From Thiomicrorhabdus xiamenensis (GTDB lineage Bacteria > Pseudomonadota > Gammaproteobacteria > Thiomicrospirales > Thiomicrospiraceae), in the NCBI RefSeq assembly GCF_013282625.1, contig NZ_CP054020.1, positions 868,001 through 932,000 of the forward strand: a DNA stretch of 64,000 nucleotides, in the 5' to 3' direction. Positions 18,289-26,744 of the stretch are shown piece after piece (position 1 is the first letter of the stretch; every line of letters starts with the position of its first letter). Made by a program: the position numbers and the translations under genes. Under the pieces are notes generated by a model. That model worked only from the letters and a program-made list of their open reading frames with translations. It made no database searches and had not been told where the DNA came from.

Positions 18289-19209
18289 TTAAGCCGGCGT
18301 TTTGCCGGCTTTTTTATTTCCCAGACGCTCTTGCAGGAAGTCGAGAAAGGCGCGGGTTTTTGCCGGTACGTATTCGCGGTTAGGGTAGGTGCACCAGATC
18401 TGATTGCCGGCTTGCAGATAGAGGACATCGTGTTCCGGAAAGACTTCAAGCAAACGTTTGTTTTGCAGCTCCTCCTGCACCAGCCAGTCGGGAAGCAGTG
18501 CGATTCCTTCTCCGGCCAGGCAGAGACTTTTAGCCGCTTGTTCATGGGTTGCCAGAAGCACTTGATTGATCCAAATCGTTTCGGTTTTTCCGCTGCGACG
18601 GTGGTGAAAGCGCCATTGTTTGGCTTCGGCTTTCGCAATGAAATTCAAGCAGGGCAGCTGCTCGAGCGCACCGGGTTCAGGAAACGGATGTTTCTGTAAA
18701 AAAAGGGGGCTGGCACAGGCCACGAAACGTAGCGTTTTTAATGGTCTGGCGACCCAGTTTTCTTCGGAGACTTTTCCGATGCGCACGCCCATATCGATTT
18801 TTTCCTGAACCAGATCGAGACATTCGTCGGTAATCAGAAGTTCGAGTTTCAGTTCCGGATGATCTCGGCGAAACTCCGGGATAAGTGGAACGACCTGCGC
18901 TTCGGCGAAGCCCAGCGGCAAGGTGACCCGTAAGGTTCCTTTGAGTTCCTGCTTAATATCCAGGGCTTTATACTTGGCCTGATCGAGGTGATCCAGAATG
19001 GGAAGTATCTGCTGATAATAGGTTTCGCCTGCTTCGGTAAGATCCAGTTTGCGGGTACTGCGCTGTAACAGTTTGACGCCAAGCTCCGTTTCCAATGCTT
19101 GAATACTGCGGGAAATTGATGTGGCGTTGAGCTGGCGTTTTTCGGCAACGGCCGCAAAACTGCCGAGACGGACAACTTCGGTGAAGATTTCCAGTTGCTC
19201 AATTTGCAT
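18289..19209 (-). CDS. LysR-family transcriptional regulator
   Basis: A 306-residue LysR regulator. The N-terminal winged helix-turn-helix reads FAAVAEKRQLNATSISRSIQ, followed by LETELGVKLLQRSTRK. The C-terminal two-lobed effector domain includes LRVTLPLGFAEAQVVPLIPE. The ATG at 19209 is preferred (GAAGG 6 nt upstream); it lies 1 nt past the stop of the methyltransferase gene, implying co-translation. It is divergent from azoR-pirin and likely regulates them, given the palindrome at 19882-19900. Its last residues (KKAGKTPA) are encoded by the hairpin that terminates the opposite-strand gene. Confidence 0.88.
   Translation of the reverse strand: MQIEQLEIFTEVVRLGSFAAVAEKRQLNATSISRSIQALETELGVKLLQRSTRKLDLTEAGETYYQQILPILDHLDQAKYKALDIKQELKGTLRVTLPLGFAEAQVVPLIPEFRRDHPELKLELLITDECLDLVQEKIDMGVRIGKVSEENWVARPLKTLRFVACASPLFLQKHPFPEPGALEQLPCLNFIAKAEAKQWRFHHRRSGKTETIWINQVLLATHEQAAKSLCLAGEGIALLPDWLVQEELQNKRLLEVFPEHDVLYLQAGNQIWCTYPNREYVPAKTRAFLDFLQERLGNKKAGKTPA
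18291..18316 (+). terminator. intrinsic terminator overlapping the LysR coding end
   Basis: GCCGGC (18293-18298), a loop, GCCGGC (18304-18309), then T6. It ends the plus-strand exported protein gene and at the same time encodes the C-terminal residues of the minus-strand LysR gene. Confidence 0.8.
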
Positions 19210-19210
19210 T

Positions 19211-19819
19211 TCAGCCTTCTTTGGTTGCAATCATCTGTACAACCGCGGCCATACCGTTGTGCAGGACGCCTTCCTTCACCTCGCGTTCCAGCTCACACAG
19301 ATGGCGGTGTTCCAAGTCGGCCAGTTCATTTTTAAGGCCTTCAAGCGTCATCATCAGTTCGACCTGAGGCGGCCCGCCGGTAGCAAATTGCAGCTGTTCG
19401 GGGCGGTAGGCTTCCAGAATAAAAACGCCTTGCGGTCTAAGCGCCTGAGCGACTTTCTGATGCAGATTCAGGCGCAAGGCTTCGGGAAGATGGCAGAAAA
19501 TCGAGATAATGCCATCCCAGAGGTTTGTTCCCAAATCATAATCCGCCAAGTCGGCAACCTGAGTTGTAATGCTAACACCTCGGGAGTTTGCCAGCGTCTG
19601 AGCTTTCTGCAAACCGACTTCGGAAGCGTCTATAGCGGTGACATCAAACCCCTGTTCGGCAAGAAAGACCGCATTGCGACCTTCTCCTTCGCCTAAGCAA
19701 AGGATTTTGCGCGCACCGGTTTGCGGTAGATGATGTACGCTTTGCTGAAGGAAGTCGTTTGCTTCGGTTCCGTACTGATACTCTTCGCTTGAATACCTTT
19801 CGTCCCATATTGTGGCCAC
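19211..19819 (-). CDS. class I SAM-dependent methyltransferase (TehB-like)
   Basis: A 202-residue Rossmann-fold methyltransferase. Motif I is ILCLGEGEGRNAVFLAEQGF with the acidic strand end VTAIDAS, and the later strand GIISIFCHLP fits motif IV. The opening ATIWDERYSSEEYQYGTEAN matches the TehB/thiopurine-methyltransferase-like group, whose members often detoxify oxyanions or small electrophiles. It is the first gene of a two-gene unit with LysR, transcribed away from azoR. The substrate is unknown. The redox-stress neighbours (azoreductase, pirin) suggest a detoxification role, as inference only. Confidence 0.82.
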   Translation of the reverse strand: MATIWDERYSSEEYQYGTEANDFLQQSVHHLPQTGARKILCLGEGEGRNAVFLAEQGFDVTAIDASEVGLQKAQTLANSRGVSITTQVADLADYDLGTNLWDGIISIFCHLPEALRLNLHQKVAQALRPQGVFILEAYRPEQLQFATGGPPQVELMMTLEGLKNELADLEHRHLCELEREVKEGVLHNGMAAVVQMIATKEG

Positions 19820-19881
19820 TGTATCAACTCCGCTAGGGTTATTTTGTTTGAGATAATTTTACGCGATTATAAATTGATTAT

Positions 19882-19900
19882 TACTGCAAATTATGCAGTA
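19882..19900. promoter_or_regulatory. 19-bp palindrome, candidate LysR operator
   Basis: TACTGCA, 5 nt, TGCAGTA: a perfect inverted repeat with 7-bp arms, containing a T-N11-A type core as bound by LysR proteins. It lies midway between the divergent methyltransferase-LysR and azoR-pirin units, 63 bp and 83 bp from their starts. Confidence 0.6.
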
Positions 19901-19982
19901 TTTAGATGCGCCTAACCTGCTTTTTATTCATCTTAGGCCTGTTTAGACTGAAATTGTCACCGAATTAAACAGGAGAGTGAAA

Positions 19983-20597
19983 ATGAACAATATTATGCGC
20001 ATCGATGCCAGTCTACAGCCGGTAGAACAGTCCAGCTCCAAGCAGTTGGGGGATTTTCTGACGACTTATCTCGCCCCACAGGAGCTTAATCATCTGGATT
20101 TGGCGCAATCGTCCATTCGTCCTATTGATGCCGAGTATCTCGCGGCGGCATTCAATCCCGAGCCGACCTCTGAACAACAGGAGATTTTACGTGATTCGGA
20201 CAGTTTGATTGAACAGCTCAAGGCGGCGGATGCCGTGATCATTACAGCGCCTATGTATAATTTCGGGGTGCCCGCCAATTTAAAAAGCTTTTTTGATCAG
20301 GTGCTTAGAGCAGGGAAGACCTTTCGTTATACTGAACAGGGACCGCAGGGACTGGTCGAGGATAAACCGGTCTTTATTATTCTGAGCTCCGGCGGTGATT
20401 ATCGAGAGGGCGCAGCACAGGCGATGAATTATCTTGACGGGCATTTGAAAACCATGCTGAATTTTATCGGTTTGAAAGAACTGTATTTTATTCATGCCGC
20501 TGGTCTGGCCCAGGGCGATGCGGATCAAATCGTCCAAAAGGCGAAAGACGATATCCTGACAGTTTTGCCGCAATTAAAGAGGGAACAGCATGCTTAG
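19983..20597 (+). CDS. azoR: FMN-dependent NADH-azoreductase
   Basis: A 204-residue flavodoxin-like oxidoreductase. Features are the N-terminal IMRIDASLQPVEQSSSKQL (phosphate-binding start), APMYNFGVPANLKSFFDQVL with the conserved P-M-Y/W-N-F, and ILSSGGDYREG. AzoR dimers bind FMN and reduce azo dyes and quinones by two-electron transfer from NADH, and commonly act in quinone or thiol stress. The start at 19983 follows AGGAG by 7 nt. The gene overlaps the pirin gene by 8 nt. It is likely controlled by the divergent LysR. Confidence 0.92.
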   Translation: MNNIMRIDASLQPVEQSSSKQLGDFLTTYLAPQELNHLDLAQSSIRPIDAEYLAAAFNPEPTSEQQEILRDSDSLIEQLKAADAVIITAPMYNFGVPANLKSFFDQVLRAGKTFRYTEQGPQGLVEDKPVFIILSSGGDYREGAAQAMNYLDGHLKTMLNFIGLKELYFIHAAGLAQGDADQIVQKAKDDILTVLPQLKREQHA

Positions 20598-21435
20598 AAA
20601 AATTCGACAAGTGACTCTTGCTCGGCCGGCGATGGATGGCGAAGGCGTCGCTTTGCAGCGCAATGCCTTATTCGACGGCCGTCTGGATCCGTTTTTAATG
20701 TTAGACGAATTGAAGGCTTCTCCGCAGGATGATGTGGGCGCTTTTCCGGTGCATCCGCATAGAGGGATTCAGACGCTGAGTTATCTGATTGATGGCGGTA
20801 TGGCTCACAAAGATTCGATGGGTAATGCCTCTGAGGTCCTGTCCGGAGGTTTGCAGTGGATGCATACCGGACAGGGGATCGAACATGCGGAAATCCCGAA
20901 AGTCGATGCGAACGGACTCTGGGGCTTTCAGTTCTGGTTGAATGTGCCGCGTGACGAGAAATATCAGGCGCCGCAATATCAGGATATGGATGCGTCACAT
21001 CTACCATGGTTGCAACTTGACGATCTTGCGCTCAAGGTCGTTGCTGGTAACTGGCAGTTCAACGGTCAGGAATACCGCTCAGATTTTCAAAAACTGAGTG
21101 GCAACGCTGCTTTGGCGGATTTGAATTGGCAGGGGCAGGCAACGCTTTCGGTCGCGGCACATGAAGCCAGTCTGGCCTTGTATGTGATCAGCGGTAAAGT
21201 TTTGGTTAACGGTGACAGTGAAGTGCCGGCGGGACAGTTAGTGCAGTTTTCCGATGCTGTTTCCGGGAGCGGCGAGATAAGCCTTGCGGGAGATGCTTCC
21301 AGTCGGGCATTGATTTTTAAAGGCGAGCCGATCGGTGAGCCGATTGTTCATCGCGGGCCTTTCGTCATGACCAGCAATCGGGAAATCGAAGAAACTTTAC
21401 AGGCTTACCGGGATGGAACCCTGGTTAAATCCTGA
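20590..21435 (+). CDS. pirin-family bicupin protein
   Basis: A 281-residue pirin. The N-terminal cupin carries the signature FPVHPHRGIQTLSYLIDG, with metal-binding His in HPHRG, and later MHTGQGIEHAE. The C-terminal cupin contains LALYVISGKVLVNGD. Some bacterial pirins have quercetin dioxygenase activity and others regulate metabolic enzymes. Next to azoR and LysR a role in redox or quinone metabolism is likely. It is translationally coupled to azoR (ATG inside the azoR end). A terminator at 21457-21496 follows. Confidence 0.9.
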   Translation: MLRKIRQVTLARPAMDGEGVALQRNALFDGRLDPFLMLDELKASPQDDVGAFPVHPHRGIQTLSYLIDGGMAHKDSMGNASEVLSGGLQWMHTGQGIEHAEIPKVDANGLWGFQFWLNVPRDEKYQAPQYQDMDASHLPWLQLDDLALKVVAGNWQFNGQEYRSDFQKLSGNAALADLNWQGQATLSVAAHEASLALYVISGKVLVNGDSEVPAGQLVQFSDAVSGSGEISLAGDASSRALIFKGEPIGEPIVHRGPFVMTSNREIEETLQAYRDGTLVKS

Positions 21436-21456: not shown

Positions 21457-21496
21457 AAAAAAAGCACCTGAGGAAAGATTCCAAAGGTGCTTTTTT
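21457..21496. terminator. bidirectional terminator
   Basis: AAGCACCT (21462-21469) pairs with AGGTGCTT (21485-21492), flanked by A7 on one side and T6 on the other. It lies between the convergent azoR-pirin and bd-like/sulfide operons and can end both. Confidence 0.85.
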
Positions 21497-21514: not shown

Positions 21515-21610
21515 TTAGTTAACCACGGTAATGGTGCTTAATAACCACATGAGTGCGACGGAGCCAAAAGTCAGGATCAGCCCCCAAATAATTGCTGTTT
21601 TACCATTCAT
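21515..21610 (-). CDS. 31-residue single-span membrane protein, last gene of the sulfide/bd-like operon
   Basis: A small open frame read directly from the minus strand: MNGKTAIIWGLILTFG, then a continuous hydrophobic stretch through VALMWLLST, ending VVN and TAA. It has one transmembrane helix (about residues 6-27). Its ATG overlaps the stop of the diheme cytochrome gene by one base (TAATG), the same junction type used elsewhere in this operon. The purine-rich AGAGGAGTGGAA upstream can serve as ribosome-binding site, and the operon terminator follows at once. Size, topology and position recall CydX-type subunits of cytochrome bd, but I see no clear sequence match. Confidence 0.7.
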   Translation of the reverse strand: MNGKTAIIWGLILTFGSVALMWLLSTITVVN

Positions 21611-22326
21611 TATTCCACTCCTCTTGGTTTAAGCTGCGCATAGTAGTCAGCCAGACCCTGAATCTCTTCATCTGTCAGGTCTTTGGCAAACTGTGCCATG
21701 CCGGAGACCACGTCGTTATTACGTGAACCGTCACGGTATGCTTCCATATAACGGACAAACATGCGTGGACTCAGGTTGGTCAGAGCAGGAGTCTCATTTA
21801 AACCGCCTTCACCGTGAGCACCGTGACATGATGCGCATGGAACGATCATTCGAGAGTTATCCCCTTTGTTCGCAAGACGAACAATGCCCGGATCCACTTC
21901 AGTGTCTTTGGCAACATATTGTGCATAAGGCAGAGGCTGAGCCGCATAGTAAGCCGCCATGTCCGCCATCTGCTGATCGCTGTAGATCTGCATCAGGTGA
22001 ACCATAATGTCCGACTTGTGATCGACATTGAAACGGCCTGATTTATAGTCTTTCAGCATTTTGTAGGTATAAACCGGATTTTGTCCCGCAAGACTAGGCG
22101 TTGCCTGCGTCATGTTTTTACCTTCAACACCGTGACAGGTATAGCAGTAACCCTGTTCGACCAGCTTTTGACCGGCGTCAACACTGCCTTGCGGCATCTG
22201 ATTTTTAGTATCCAACCACTCTTTCATTGTCCAAGGTTCTGACTGTGGAGCATGTCCACTCGCAAATGCCGTACTGACACTTAGAACACTTAATCCAGTG
22301 GCGATTAATAAAGCTTTAATTTTCAT
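21610..22326 (-). CDS. diheme c-type cytochrome (FccA / cytochrome c4-like)
   Basis: A 238-residue periplasmic cytochrome. The signal peptide (MKIKALLIATGLSVLSVS, cleavage near AFA/S) is followed by two heme sites, CYTCH (about 61-65) and CASCH (about 164-168). Each sits in a class I cytochrome c domain with candidate distal Met residues. Two-domain cytochromes of this type are the electron-accepting subunit of flavocytochrome c sulfide dehydrogenase (FccA). The gene directly follows the FccB-like flavoprotein, so it is the likely partner. The start at 22326 follows AGGAGA by about 7 nt. One-base overlap with the next small gene. Confidence 0.88.
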   Translation of the reverse strand: MKIKALLIATGLSVLSVSTAFASGHAPQSEPWTMKEWLDTKNQMPQGSVDAGQKLVEQGYCYTCHGVEGKNMTQATPSLAGQNPVYTYKMLKDYKSGRFNVDHKSDIMVHLMQIYSDQQMADMAAYYAAQPLPYAQYVAKDTEVDPGIVRLANKGDNSRMIVPCASCHGAHGEGGLNETPALTNLSPRMFVRYMEAYRDGSRNNDVVSGMAQFAKDLTDEEIQGLADYYAQLKPRGVE

Positions 22327-22345
22327 GAATCGTCTCCTGTACCAA

Positions 22346-23644
22346 TTATTCAAAGATGTCGCGACGGAAAGCGCGCTGCCAGTTCATTGCCAGAGAGGCA
22401 CGAATATGATGCAGGGCTTCGTTATCCAACTCAGTGGACTGATGTCCATACTGTTTGACGATCTTGCCATCTTTAACACGGAAGGTATCGGTAATGGTCA
22501 TACCGTAGTCTTCACCTGTCAGAGCGACACAGTTATTGGTATACAGAGGCTGAACAGGCGGCTTGCCTGCAAGCTCGTTAACAATCGACTGTGCTACCGC
22601 TTTAGAGTGGTTCGATGCCAGATAACCGGTTTTAACCATTGGCGAGGATTCAGTCGCATCACCGACAACAAAGACATCTTTATCAAGGGTGGAGCGATAA
22701 TCCATAGGATCAATCGGAACCCACTCGTTGCCTTGAGTCAGACCGGTAGCATGCGCGAATTTACCTGCAGTATGTGCCGGGATAATGTTGATAACATCGG
22801 CTTTGATGCGCTCACCGTCTGCGGTAACAAGCGTATTGTTCGCGGCATCCAGTTGAGTTACTTTGCCGCCTTTTTCCATCGGAATCCATTCGATCATGGC
22901 ATCTTTGGTTCCGTATCCACGTGCTTTGGTCCAGTAGTCCAGATAGTGCTTACGGAAGGTAAAGCTGTTTTTGGAATCCAAAATCAGGATTTTTGCCGTC
23001 GGGTTATGACGTGTCAGCCACTCAGAGATAAAGCTGGCGCGCTCATAAGGTGCCGGCGGACAACGATACGGCATCGGAGGCGAGGAGATTGCGACCACGC
23101 CACCTTGCGGCATAGAGTGGATCTGCTCACGCAGTTTTAGAGTCTGCGGGCCGGCTTTCCACGCATGTGGGAAATCGCCTTCCGCCAGCTCTTTGCTGTA
23201 ACCTTCGATGTCGCTGAACTTATAGTCAGGACCTGGAGCAACAATCAGCTTGTCATAAGCGATTGCGCCGGAGTTCTTGGTCTTGACCTTTTTCGCACTG
23301 TAATCGATGTCAGTTGCCAGATCTTCGATAACATTGACCGCGTAACGGGACTTGATGTTTTCGTAGTTCACCGTTAACTCTTCGATTGACGTGAAGTCGT
23401 TCAAAACTTCATTTGAACCCGGACAGAAAATATATTCTTTATTCGGTTCGATAATGGTGATCTTGACGTTCTTATCCAAGATACGAAGATATTTAGCGGC
23501 CGAAACCCCACCGATACCGCCACCAACGATGACGATATGCGGAGCCGATTTTGACCAGGCTTCTTTTGATGCCCCGAACAGTCCTAAGCTCAGACCTGCA
23601 GCACCAAAACGCTTCATTAATTCACGGCGTGTTAGGTTATTCAT
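22346..23644 (-). CDS. fccB: flavocytochrome c sulfide dehydrogenase flavoprotein subunit
   Basis: A 432-residue FAD enzyme. A twin-arginine signal (TRRELMKRFGAAGLSLGLFG) exports it folded. The Rossmann motif is IVIVGGGIGGVSAAKYL. Three cysteines fall where FccB needs them: Cys74 in FCPGSNEVL (covalent 8-alpha-S-cysteinyl FAD site) and the redox-active pair Cys195 (PYRCPPAPYERA) and Cys372 (NNCVALTGEDYG). VFVVGDATE is the second FAD motif. FccB oxidises sulfide to sulfur in the periplasm and hands electrons to cytochrome c. Its ATG overlaps the stop of the preceding cytochrome gene by one base. SoxF is a close relative and cannot be excluded, but no sox genes are near. Confidence 0.88.
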   Translation of the reverse strand: MNNLTRRELMKRFGAAGLSLGLFGASKEAWSKSAPHIVIVGGGIGGVSAAKYLRILDKNVKITIIEPNKEYIFCPGSNEVLNDFTSIEELTVNYENIKSRYAVNVIEDLATDIDYSAKKVKTKNSGAIAYDKLIVAPGPDYKFSDIEGYSKELAEGDFPHAWKAGPQTLKLREQIHSMPQGGVVAISSPPMPYRCPPAPYERASFISEWLTRHNPTAKILILDSKNSFTFRKHYLDYWTKARGYGTKDAMIEWIPMEKGGKVTQLDAANNTLVTADGERIKADVINIIPAHTAGKFAHATGLTQGNEWVPIDPMDYRSTLDKDVFVVGDATESSPMVKTGYLASNHSKAVAQSIVNELAGKPPVQPLYTNNCVALTGEDYGMTITDTFRVKDGKIVKQYGHQSTELDNEALHHIRASLAMNWQRAFRRDIFE

Positions 23645-24030
23645 TACTGGCCTCCTTTAAGGACATCTTCTTCTTTCCATGGACGATCTGTTTGCGCGGC
23701 GAAGTAATCCGCCATGCGCTCGATTTCAGCGTCCGTAAAGACTTTAGCTACGTGGTTCATAACAATGGATGGACGAACTTCGTTTTTGAAGTCCTGCATC
23801 AACTTGATAAAAACATCACGTGGAATCCCTGCTAGAGGTGGCATGGATTCATCGTAGAAACGTCCAAGCGTACCGTGACAGGCTGAACAGTTGTCGCCCA
23901 GCATTTTCCCAGGAATCTGCGGATCACTTGCAAATTCTTCCGGTGGAATCAGTGCTCCAGAAGCCTGGGCAGATGTCACACCGAAGAATGCTGAAGCAGT
24001 GATGAGTCCGATCATTAGCGATTTTTTCAT
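23644..24030 (-). CDS. periplasmic monoheme cytochrome c
   Basis: A 128-residue class I cytochrome c. The signal peptide (MKKSLMIGLITASAFFGV, cleavage near AQA/S) precedes one heme site, CSACH (about 48-52). A likely distal Met is in the ESMPPLAG segment, and the terminal helix reads DAEIERMADYFAAQ. It lies between the CydA-like membrane subunits and fccB, so it may shuttle electrons between the flavoprotein/diheme unit and the membrane. It overlaps fccB by one base and starts 12 bp after the upstream gene. Confidence 0.88.
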   Translation of the reverse strand: MKKSLMIGLITASAFFGVTSAQASGALIPPEEFASDPQIPGKMLGDNCSACHGTLGRFYDESMPPLAGIPRDVFIKLMQDFKNEVRPSIVMNHVAKVFTDAEIERMADYFAAQTDRPWKEEDVLKGGQ

Positions 24031-24042
24031 TTATTTGCTCCT

Positions 24043-25290
24043 TTATTGTGCCCAGACGTAGAAACCGACTACGAAGAACTGAACGATCCATAGTGCTACG
24101 ATCCAGATAGAAAGGGTACCCAGTTTGTTAACTGTTGCACCTGGAGTGTAAACACCGACGGTCTGTCCTGATTTCCAAGCGATGGTCAGGAAGTAGCTCA
24201 GTACAACACCACCAACGATTGCGAAAGTCAGGAAGAACAGGCCGGTAGAGTACCAGTCCATAACAATCTTGTAGTCCATGAAGTTGTAGTTAAAGAAGCC
24301 GTTAAGAATATCGTAACGAAGCATCTCGCGGGAGATTGCGACAACAAGGCCGATAACCAGCGCCATAGGTAGAGCCATGTAGCTGCAGAATCGCGCTTCG
24401 CCTTTCAGACGCAGTTGAGCCCATAGTGCGTAACCGATTACGGCAACGCCACCCAGGATGCCCCATACAGAAGTTGCGAAGTTACCTGCTGTTTCCGGCA
24501 GTGTCGCCATCCATGCAACATACAGAACGGTAGAGATAACAGAACCGACTTTGATCCATTTTTTACCGACTTCAGCAGCCCAGTTCAGGTAGTCGTGATC
24601 GGCATCTTCACGAACCGACTTAAAGCGACGGTAAGTAACCAGCATTGCTCCTGTTACCGGAATTGCCATGCTGATGAAGAACGCATAACGCCAGATGTTG
24701 TAGGCATGCAGCTGAGTACCGGAATAGTCCAGTTTGCCGTTTTGCATGTACCACTCTTTCCACAGTTCAGGGTGCAGGATCTGTGACGTCAGGCTGTGCA
24801 TAATGAAACCGACGACCAGCATCAGAATCAGGCTGGTAATCATCGACCAGCGAGATTTAGGCTGAACGGTTTTATCCTGGTTTTTACCATTCTGGAAATA
24901 GTAGTAGTACATCGCCCAGTAGGCCAAAATCAGAATAACGATAAAGGCGATAACCCAGTCAGCAGACAGTACGTTTGAGGTGTACCAGTGCGGATCGTAG
25001 ACAACCTGAACAAACAGCAGCGGTGCAACACCGACTACGATGGCTACGGAAACCGATACTTTAGCGATCTCCAGCATGGCAGCACCCAGGCGACGCCAGT
25101 ATGCATTGTTGTTGAAAGCGCCATATAGAGTAATGGCGGAAGTACCCAGCATTAACTGCACGAACAGAATATGCAGGGCAAAGGTTAGAACACCTAGACC
25201 GATAAAAATAATCGGAAAGGTCGGGATCCCTGCAGGGTTGCGCAGGGCATACATCATCTCAGTAACTTGAGCGACTTGTTGAGCATCCAT
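24043..25290 (-). CDS. second CydA-like membrane subunit (CydA'-type) of a bd-like oxidoreductase
   Basis: A 415-residue protein with about ten membrane spans. The first span, FALHILFVQLMLGT, matches the heme-binding first helix of CydA (E. coli AMYHFLFVPLTLG), including its His (His40). The next helices (VAIVVGVAPLLFVQVVYD and ADWVIAFIVILILAYWA) align with CydA helices II-III but lack the acidic residues near heme d/b595. It is thus a divergent CydA-like subunit, as in paired CydA/CydA' systems, not a CydB. No quinol-binding Q-loop is visible. It overlaps the upstream gene by one base and is very probably its partner. Function is inferred. Confidence 0.72.
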   Translation of the reverse strand: MDAQQVAQVTEMMYALRNPAGIPTFPIIFIGLGVLTFALHILFVQLMLGTSAITLYGAFNNNAYWRRLGAAMLEIAKVSVSVAIVVGVAPLLFVQVVYDPHWYTSNVLSADWVIAFIVILILAYWAMYYYYFQNGKNQDKTVQPKSRWSMITSLILMLVVGFIMHSLTSQILHPELWKEWYMQNGKLDYSGTQLHAYNIWRYAFFISMAIPVTGAMLVTYRRFKSVREDADHDYLNWAAEVGKKWIKVGSVISTVLYVAWMATLPETAGNFATSVWGILGGVAVIGYALWAQLRLKGEARFCSYMALPMALVIGLVVAISREMLRYDILNGFFNYNFMDYKIVMDWYSTGLFFLTFAIVGGVVLSYFLTIAWKSGQTVGVYTPGATVNKLGTLSIWIVALWIVQFFVVGFYVWAQ

Positions 25291-26744
25291 TATTTGCCCT
25301 CCTGTAGATCAACGGCAGCAACTGTGTCTTGAGCTTTTTGCTCGGCCAGAGCGCGTTCGCGTTGTTCAATTTCAGTATCGATAGCTGCGGTTACCGCCGC
25401 TTGACCACCGTCATTGTTCAGCACCAGATAGGCGGCCAAAGCTTCCGCTTCGGAATCCAGCATCGGCATTTTCGGCATATAGGCGATATTACCGGTTGTC
25501 AGAACCCCTTTAACGTATTGAGCAACACGTTCCTGAGAGACGCCTTCAGGGAAGTAGCGGTGCAACGGACGAATACCGGTTTCACTCGGAGAGTGACAGT
25601 TCGAGCAGTAGGTCATTGCGATGAATTCACCTGCCTGAATCTTATTGCCATCGTTTACTTCTTTCAGGTGGTCAGGAGTAAATGGATGTGCTTGCAGAAT
25701 ACCGACTTTTTCGATTGTCGGAAGCTGGGATTTGATATCCATACCTGGAACGTCTTTACCGATTACCTGGTTAGAGTACACATATTGACCGGCAACCCAA
25801 GGCTTACGCATGGATTCACGAGCCGTCTCTTCAGGCCATAGACCTGCGACCAGGATAATGATTGTCATCGCACCGGCAAAACCTTGAACGATCATTTGCG
25901 GACGAAGCATGGTGATAATGAAGTAAGCCAGAGTACCGGCAAGTACAATCATAATACTAGACTGGAAGTAGTCTGGAAGACGGTTTTCCATAACCAGTAG
26001 TGCTTGATCCGGAACCGAAGTCAGGTACCACTGGAACATCGACGCACCGATCAGGGTTGAGATAATCCCCAGCCAACCCAGTTTACGAGCCATCTCTTTT
26101 TTGAAGGCAGGGTCTTTGATTCCGGCAATGACGATACCACCTACTACAGCGGTCATGGTGAACATGAATGCCATACGCATACCCAGTTGCGCGAAAGTGT
26201 TGGTTCCGTAGAAACCGTTCAGGTAACCACCGTCTGCGAACCATTGTTCTTTACCAGGTACCATCATGAATGACAGGATACCGACGATAATCAACATAGT
26301 GGCCAGTGACGCCATACCGAAAATTACCGAAATTTTCATGTGCGTACGTTTATCGACGCGGCCAACCAGGTAAACAATCATGTAAACCCCGACAACCTCG
26401 ATCACGAAGAAGACCCACTCAGTCGCCCATTTCCATACAAATGAGTGAATTAGGGCGCCGATTCCGTTCGGGCTAGCGACGGTTGTGGAGTACCAGATCC
26501 CCGGACCGGTAATGGAACCGGCAACATAGGTGAAGACCAGTAAGAAAAGACCGTACTTCTTAACGAAGTCTAGAAGGTCTTCACGGTCTTCGCGGTAGGC
26601 TTTATGTGAAAGATAAGCGAAGAGCATGGCTGCACCAACAGAAGTGTGGGAGGCCAGTACGTGGAAAGTTGCAATCAATGCAACAACCCAACCGGATCCC
26701 ACTGTTGGTTCATACCAAGTCGGATAGAGGCTAATCAAGTCCAT
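25290..26744 (-). CDS. CydA-like bd-type oxidoreductase subunit fused to a C-terminal cytochrome c domain
   Basis: A 484-residue membrane protein, first gene of the operon. About nine spans include ATFHVLASHTSVGAAML (His28, His33), then WATEWVFFVIEVVGV (Glu109, Glu116) aligned with the acidic residues of CydA helix III. The segment ESMRKPWVAGQ corresponds to the CydA motif GRQPW. The usual CydA His in the helix V region appears replaced (GMRMAFMFTM), and the quinol-binding Q-loop is absent. Residues about 365-450 form a cytochrome c domain with CSNCH (380-384) and a Met-rich MPKMPM distal segment. The design suggests electron entry from cytochrome c, not from quinol. It may reduce oxygen or, in reverse, feed quinone. 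Confidence 0.75.
   Translation of the reverse strand: MDLISLYPTWYEPTVGSGWVVALIATFHVLASHTSVGAAMLFAYLSHKAYREDREDLLDFVKKYGLFLLVFTYVAGSITGPGIWYSTTVASPNGIGALIHSFVWKWATEWVFFVIEVVGVYMIVYLVGRVDKRTHMKISVIFGMASLATMLIIVGILSFMMVPGKEQWFADGGYLNGFYGTNTFAQLGMRMAFMFTMTAVVGGIVIAGIKDPAFKKEMARKLGWLGIISTLIGASMFQWYLTSVPDQALLVMENRLPDYFQSSIMIVLAGTLAYFIITMLRPQMIVQGFAGAMTIIILVAGLWPEETARESMRKPWVAGQYVYSNQVIGKDVPGMDIKSQLPTIEKVGILQAHPFTPDHLKEVNDGNKIQAGEFIAMTYCSNCHSPSETGIRPLHRYFPEGVSQERVAQYVKGVLTTGNIAYMPKMPMLDSEAEALAAYLVLNNDGGQAAVTAAIDTEIEQRERALAEQKAQDTVAAVDLQEGK

Follow-up and report, generated by a model that had tools for sequence, protein, structure and literature searches.

A sulfide dehydrogenase operon of Thiomicrorhabdus xiamenensis encodes a CydA-related membrane pair, a candidate cytochrome c-fed oxygen reductase

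Six closely packed genes on the minus strand of Thiomicrorhabdus xiamenensis, here termed A to F (Table 1), occupy positions 26744-21515 of the window, the whole stretch of 64,000 nucleotides that was analysed. C and D are identified by sequence as a flavocytochrome c sulfide dehydrogenase (FCSD) with a predicted sulfide:cytochrome c activity, and A and B are membrane proteins related to CydA of the cytochrome bd superfamily. A carries a fused heme c, keeps the positions of CydA heme ligands and, like B, lacks the canonical quinol site. Most likely, and at a level of confidence that we would call moderate, the operon encodes a cytochrome c-fed oxygen reductase of the bd superfamily that is coupled to FCSD. 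The initial annotation of the operon, made from the DNA letters, proposed an undescribed system. This was too strong, as possibly cytochrome c-fed bd-like enzymes without a quinol site (OR-C, OR-N, CydAA') are in print; the kind of enzyme is already described, and a coupling to FCSD appears in none of the papers listed.

Relation of the membrane pair to CydA

The membrane parts of A and B matched no Pfam model at the cut-off. In family scans at E≤0.001, A was matched at its C-terminal cytochrome c domain only, below the Pfam cut-off, and B by no family, and single-sequence searches of both proteins against PDB sequences gave no meaningful match. Four concordant sequence comparisons identify A as a distant homologue of CydA. 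A profile of 58 A proteins matched Geobacillus CydA (5doq) with an E value of 5e-4 over transmembrane segments (TM) TM1-TM5. When the 58 proteins were scanned singly, 34 matched PF01654 at E≤1 (best 1.2e-5, A of the window 0.18), and other membrane families were matched by at most two of them each, except for PF02167 of the cytochrome c1 family (5/58). Profile-profile alignment by hhalign of A with 25 gammaproteobacterial CydA proteins yielded probabilities of 91.8 and 94.8; with the membrane part of A only, the probability was 95.6 (E 1e-8), compared to 17.0, 19.7 and 37.9 for reversed controls. Unguided MAFFT alignment placed H28, E116, H135, E310, R313 and P315 of A on CydA H19, which we take to be a heme ligand, E107, H126, E445, R448 and P450 (25/25 CydA sequences). 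The homology spans TM1-TM6.

In addition, hmmsearch aligned E109 of A with E101 of Geobacillus CydA, which corresponds to E99 of E. coli. H28, H33, E109, R190, E306, R309, E310, the R313-K-P motif, the CXXCH motif and M423 were invariant in 110 of 110 A sequences, which range from Proteobacteria to Thermus and include Methylosinus and Agrobacterium, and E116 was kept in 109. A sequences of ≤400 aa and B sequences of ≤380 aa were dropped before these counts, and the 110 A and 93 B sequences include identical or near-identical copies and are thus not independent. Passages in PMC6853902 describe Glu99 and Glu445 of E. coli CydA as axially coordinating hemes d and b595. Hydropathy indicated about eight helices in A, with one 37-residue stretch counted as two. 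The cytochrome c domain is fused after the last helix; if A has its N-terminus on the outer side, as CydA does, this domain would lie in the periplasm.

The membrane part of B matched that of A in hhalign with a probability of 97.2 (reversed controls 0.2-2.1), whereas a B profile had no match among PDB sequences; by profile comparison, B is joined to the bd superfamily through A only. B is predicted by hydropathy to have about ten helices. It retains H40 and R325 in 93/93 and E322 in 90/93 sequences, with His in the other three, but not the TM3 glutamates, the counterparts of E99 and E107 being absent. These features suggest A as the catalytic subunit, partnered by B in the CydA' or CydB position. 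In the three B sequences with His at 322, from Agrobacterium and two f181 genomes, position 204 is His as well, and for two of them this position is the H186 column of a three-way alignment. DUF2231 and DUF6341 were rejected as families for B, each being matched weakly and by 4 of 50 B members. The initial assignment of a CydA-like pair was supported, for A directly and for B through A, with heme-ligand positions kept. The possibility raised along with it, that the two proteins belong to an unrelated family without heme ligands, did not come true when the alignment with CydA was run.

The absence of CydB and of a Q-loop had also been noted at the outset, and both hold. No CydB gene was found in the operon, and fewer than 30 residues separate hydrophobic segments six and seven of A, leaving no room for a Q-loop. 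The MAFFT alignments and the residue columns checked against CydA covered 25 sequences each of A and B (five chosen, twenty random), out of 110 and 93. The quinol-site residues K252 and E257 of E. coli were gapped in 25/25 A and 25/25 B. Of the columns that hold the heme b558 ligands, that of H186 contained His in 0/25 A and 2/25 B, and that of M393 contained Met in 6/25 A; neither is conserved. The missing CydB, Q-loop and b558 ligands rule out canonical CydAB, from which the pair also differs by the heme c fused to A.

The coupled sulfide dehydrogenase and conservation of the operon

D matched PF21706 with 127.9 bits (cut-off 27) and PF09242 with 38.7 bits (cut-off 26), and aligned with 1fcd at an E value of 3e-92. 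Its residues C195 and C372 coincide with the redox cysteines of 1fcd and are invariant in 70/70 D sequences, those of ≤380 aa having been dropped before counting. C, the monoheme cytochrome subunit, is encoded immediately upstream of D. The two proteins resemble FccAB (1fcd, 3vrd, 5n1t) in both redox cysteines and in the monoheme subunit, but, in contrast to FccAB, are encoded in one operon together with a diheme cytochrome and the two bd-like membrane proteins. The heme motifs first read in A (CSNCH), C (CSACH) and E (two CXXCH) are present, and E is diheme in 65/65 sequences. D was also correctly described as having three key cysteines (C74, C195, C372), but the first is not general: the C74 column, which presumably is the FAD-linking position, holds Cys in 23/70 and Pro in 43/70 relatives, so that many D proteins may bind FAD without a covalent link.

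A scan of contigs yielded 474 loci, of which the best 79 were examined, so that the following counts describe the nearest relatives. The 79 include Thiomicrorhabdus, Hydrogenovibrio, Thiomicrospira, Halothiobacillus, Guyparkeria, Thiomonas and Thiobacillus, and also Thiothrix, Thioalkalivibrio, Thiocapsa, Thiohalocapsa, Hydrogenophaga, Rhodoferax, Tepidimonas and others. Among the loci scanned, the nearest named relatives are Thiomicrorhabdus strains, with A 99% identical in Thiomicrorhabdus sp. 6S3-12. B adjoins A in 77/79 loci, the remaining two contigs ending in or at A. FCSD is found within 6 kb on the same strand as A-B in 70/79 loci, and the nine contigs without it end less than 1.8 kb downstream of A. 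The co-occurrence of A, B and D exceeds chance; statistics on clusters of open reading frames (ORFs) were restricted to loci of more than 14 kb (49/79). The gene order is A-B-C-D-E or C-D-A-B-E, and A-B-C-D-E is the conserved unit. The initial expectation that all six genes co-occur in sulfur oxidisers thus held for these five in many of them, but F was matched by tblastn in 16/79 loci only, all from Thiomicrospira-type relatives.

A less biased picture came from a class sample of 369 genomes, including the T. xiamenensis genome and two others of its family. A was present in 10 of these genomes, B beside it in all ten and FCSD in seven; of the three without an FCSD match, two have an E-like cytochrome and one carries heme c on both A and B. 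When the whole phylum was searched with the B alignment, 3 of 398 genomes gave a match. With the A profile, full-length matches were obtained in the same three, nearly all other matches (E≤0.01) being to the cytochrome c domain. In a tree of 57 sequences, 40 of them random, the FCSD-linked A proteins form one clade (98/100) apart from the FCSD-less pairs; the tree was midpoint-rooted and drew long-branch warnings, and a few rows of the clade stem from contigs too short for FCSD. Homologues in four plasmid records are annotated as 'cytochrome c', 'c-type cytochrome', 'cytochrome C' or 'hypothetical protein'.

In close relatives (L046-L050, L058), A and B are 82-93% identical to those of the window, whereas C, D and E are 34-59% identical, indicating that the membrane core A-B is the conserved part. 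In Thiomicrorhabdus heinhorstiae (L046:3996-13447), the operon occurs twice in tandem. Both copies encode an A and a B that share 91-93% identity with those of the window, but C/D differ strongly, with 34/46% identity in one copy and 57/59% in the other, as if the FCSD part had been exchanged on a fixed membrane core.

Table 1. Genes and terminator of the operon, in window coordinates (TM numbers by hydropathy)
Feature	Position	Strand	Description
Gene A	25290..26744	-	484 aa; CydA-like subunit, ~8 TM, C-terminal monoheme cytochrome c domain (CSNCH)
Gene B	24043..25290	-	415 aa; paralogue of A, probable CydA'/CydB-position subunit, ~10 TM, no heme c, H40 and E322/R325
Gene C	23644..24030	-	128 aa; monoheme cytochrome c (CSACH), FccA-like FCSD subunit
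Gene D	22346..23644	-	432 aa; FccB-like FCSD flavoprotein, C195/C372 pair, N-terminal RR
Gene E	21610..22326	-	238 aa from ATG; diheme cytochrome c (CYTCH, CASCH)
Gene F	21515..21610	-	31-aa single-span protein; possible CydX/CydS-like accessory subunit
Intrinsic terminator hairpin	21458..21496	-	directly after F

Predicted electron path and alternative functions

In the favoured reading, A and B would pair in the membrane as a heterodimer belonging to the cytochrome bd superfamily, with an O2-reducing heme pair in A at the CydA positions and B as the paralogous partner in place of CydB or CydA'. The heme c fused to A would serve as electron entry in place of the quinol site and heme b558. Electrons from sulfide would pass to the FAD of D, the heme c of C, the diheme E and the heme c of A, and from there to the active-site hemes of A. 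O2 would be reduced at the di-heme site, with cytoplasmic protons taken up via E116, whose CydA counterpart Glu107 is placed on a proton path in the titles of papers on the enzyme. We infer the formation of such a complex, its heme content, the direction of flow and O2 as the acceptor. The outcome would be a self-contained path from sulfide to O2 that bypasses the quinone pool and the heme-copper oxidase. bd-type oxidases are more sulfide-tolerant than heme-copper oxidases, which perhaps constitutes the advantage; resistance to sulfide conferred by a bd oxidase is reported in a paper title. The genome of T. xiamenensis has no match to PF01654, the family of canonical bd oxidases. The wider proposal, that FCSD, the diheme cytochrome and the cytochrome c-fed bd-superfamily oxidase act as one dedicated sulfide:O2 membrane complex in many gamma- and betaproteobacterial sulfur oxidisers, is plausible but tentative and may well not hold.

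If true, A-B would be a bd-superfamily oxidase of cytochrome c whose electron donor is defined by the operon. FCSD is usually depicted as handing the electrons of sulfide to cytochrome c (e.g., in a passage of PMC5733100). If A-B reduces O2, common sulfur oxidisers would own a second outlet of their own for these electrons, one that sulfide probably poisons less. Moreover, the bd families without a quinol site would gain such a donor, where the relevant passages of PMC10839748 and PMC3578206 still guess at donor and function, together with cultivated hosts (Thiomicrorhabdus, Thiothrix, Guyparkeria, Tepidimonas and others).

Several observations weigh against an O2-reducing A-B pair of this kind. 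A of the window scores 10.8 bits on PF01654, where the cut-off is 26.2, and the direct profile match of B with CydA has a non-significant probability of 8.6 (reversed 0.3-0.4). Both MAFFT alignments put E109 of A off CydA E99, opposite a gap in one and an Asn in the other; one possible reason is the additional residue near E99 of E. coli-type CydA that a passage of PMC6853902 describes. Nor are the b558 ligands conserved, which makes any path from heme c to the active site conjectural. The genome, a single contig of 2.59 Mb, already contains one gene for a heme-copper oxidase subunit I. Finally, according to a passage of PMC3578206, an anammox bacterium, which is strictly anaerobic, has a bd-like gene within its nitrite-oxidoreductase cluster, so that a bd-like fold need not mean O2 reduction. 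The operon is not the only sulfide route of its host, since two pairs of a monoheme cytochrome with an FCSD flavoprotein and a fourth FCSD-like gene are encoded elsewhere (L183, L184, L185), giving four FCSD paralogues in total.

As the main rival explanation, A-B may act as a cytochrome c:quinone oxidoreductase that passes FCSD electrons to the quinone pool, in the way of an alternative-complex-III-like or reverse entry, for NAD reduction and CO2 fixation. Many hosts are autotrophs that need low-potential electrons, and without such a step the electrons of FCSD enter at the level of cytochrome c. A passage of PMC3578206 proposes this role for the Q-loop-less bd-like proteins of Nitrospina and Nitrospira; the Nitrospina protein is described there as having 14 TM, with three helices where the Q-loop would be. 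In contrast, about eight and ten TM are predicted for A and B, and the 14-TM feature is thus not found in them. The canonical K252/E257 pair and the Q-loop are missing in both proteins, although another quinone site is possible. The O2-site ligand positions and the TM3 glutamates of A are invariant or nearly so, and A-B occurs without an FCSD match in the stretches read from Methylosinus, Thermus and Agrobacterium; these points argue against a transfer of FCSD electrons to quinone, which we consider unlikely.

A-B could also be a non-catalytic membrane anchor and heme wire that docks FCSD and hands its electrons to a heme-copper oxidase, for which the single subunit I gene of the genome would provide the partner. 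Judging by paper titles, an FCSD bound to the membrane is reported for both Thiobacillus sp. W5 and Ectothiorhodospira vacuolata. W5 presumably belongs near Halothiobacillus. The FCSD of W5 (Visser et al., 1997) comes from a colourless sulfur bacterium, and Halothiobacillus loci carry A-B, and a role of A-B as the membrane anchor of the W5 enzyme is a conjecture. An anchor would, however, have no need of the invariant His/Glu set; A and B are conserved while C, D and E vary in several close relatives, and the pair persists without FCSD. A mere anchoring role therefore seems rather improbable, compared to the cytochrome c-fed oxygen reductase favoured above.

The OR-C and OR-N families (CydAA') are reportedly those of Murali et al. 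2021. Passages of PMC10839748 and PMC13189123 describe both as members of the bd superfamily without a quinol site, and OR-N as likely using cytochrome c, with CydAA' built from two CydA-like proteins. A and B likewise are CydA-like proteins outside the quinol-binding qOR family; they differ, as far as the families can be compared by description, in the link of their genes to FCSD and in the roughly eight TM and fused heme c of A. Membership of A-B in OR-C is quite possible. The combination of a TM domain with cytochrome c also recalls the urate oxidase PuuD. This candidate was rejected, as hhalign matched A in the cytochrome c domain only and not in the TM part; PF06181, the TM domain of PuuD, had no match in the T. 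xiamenensis genome. Among the literature matches listed, no title or abstract opening describes a coupling of FCSD to a bd-type enzyme, and the passages found on FCSD in Guyparkeria/Thiohalobacter, Thioalkalivibrio and Hydrogenovibrio do not mention one.

A-B pairs without FCSD and neighbouring genes

A restriction of A-B to sulfide, as first assumed, was not confirmed, since pairs without an FCSD match occur in the same family and, in the stretches read, in Methylosinus, Agrobacterium and Thermus. Five genomes of the same family hold a second A-B pair with a cytochrome c match next to B and no FCSD match, and three of the four second pairs that were read gene by gene show a monoheme ORF next to B. 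Second pairs lacking the flavoprotein were seen in L035, L036, L037, L038 and L039, all Thiomicrospira-type genomes; that of L035 adjoins genes that by eye are CobW-like and metal-transport-like. RegB/RegA-like genes, so named from best NCBIfam matches to NF033792 and NF033791 below their cut-offs, adjoin the FCSD-less pairs in L036, L038, Methylosinus and Agrobacterium, and a RegA-like gene lies about 3.6 kb from the pair in L039, as expected of a redox-regulated respiratory enzyme. The Thermus pair, on a plasmid, has neither a cytochrome nor an FCSD match in the stretch read. On a Methylosinus plasmid (L201:10001-14943), A-B, a monoheme cytochrome and the RegBA-like genes adjoin a cluster for methanobactin, a copper chelator, a suggestive setting for a possibly copper-free oxidase, next to genes for copper acquisition. 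A distant type of A-B was found in L176:2120-4858, L174, L211:6761-9531 and L203:10010-12746. CXXCH is present on both A and B in L174, L176 and L211 and on A only in L203, and E322 of B is replaced by His, with His at position 204, in L174, L176 and L203.

A peroxiredoxin-like gene follows E on the same strand in 7/79 loci (L067, L068, L083, L091, L092, L105, L106; ~13.3-14.8 kb), six of them from Betaproteobacteria, and is compatible with O2 chemistry. Near the distant pair of L176 (5741-7751), catalase-like and bacterioferritin-like ORFs were recognised by eye; no such match was found in the other loci read. These neighbours would also fit a pair that reduces peroxide, nitric oxide or another small oxidant other than O2 with electrons from cytochrome c, and a di-heme site could bind other small ligands. 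However, they would likewise suit an O2 reductase from which peroxide escapes, and most loci read have neither catalase nor peroxiredoxin. The named hosts with FCSD are mostly aerobic or microaerobic sulfur oxidisers, although Thiocapsa and Thiohalocapsa are phototrophs. Reduction of an oxidant other than O2 by A-B is thus very doubtful.

A gene resembling sigma-54 activators, with a Cys-x10-Cys-x6-Cys motif, was detected in 10/79 loci, all with FCSD; PAS and sigma-54 domains are present in the two of these ten that were checked. We take the spacing of the motif to equal that of Cys53/64/71 in FisR. A review, in the part concerned, describes FisR as sensing reactive sulfur via three conserved cysteines.

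The small protein F matched no family. Outside the Thiomicrospira-type group, a search for F-like ORFs gave two chance-looking candidates only; the hydropathy threshold applied there passed over true F genes as well. Its size and place fit a small subunit of the CydX/CydS type, which we take to be a single-span protein of 30-40 aa, although F is limited to the 16 loci mentioned above.

The tight packing of the six minus-strand genes, described from the start as one-base overlaps or gaps of up to about 20 bp, is borne out by the coordinates: A/B, C/D and E/F overlap by one base, and 12 bp (B-C) and 19 bp (D-E) separate the others. With an alternative TTG start, E would comprise 247 aa. A promoter scan of the operon scored below the shuffle mean and was uninformative. 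The terminator hairpin after F is strong, with -19.3 kcal/mol (shuffle z -4.3) and a T run. Downstream of the operon (window 18289-21435), the minus strand carries genes for a LysR-like regulator and a methyltransferase-like protein, while the plus strand carries an FMN-oxidoreductase-like gene and a pirin-like gene, ending 79 bp from F (all named by eye).

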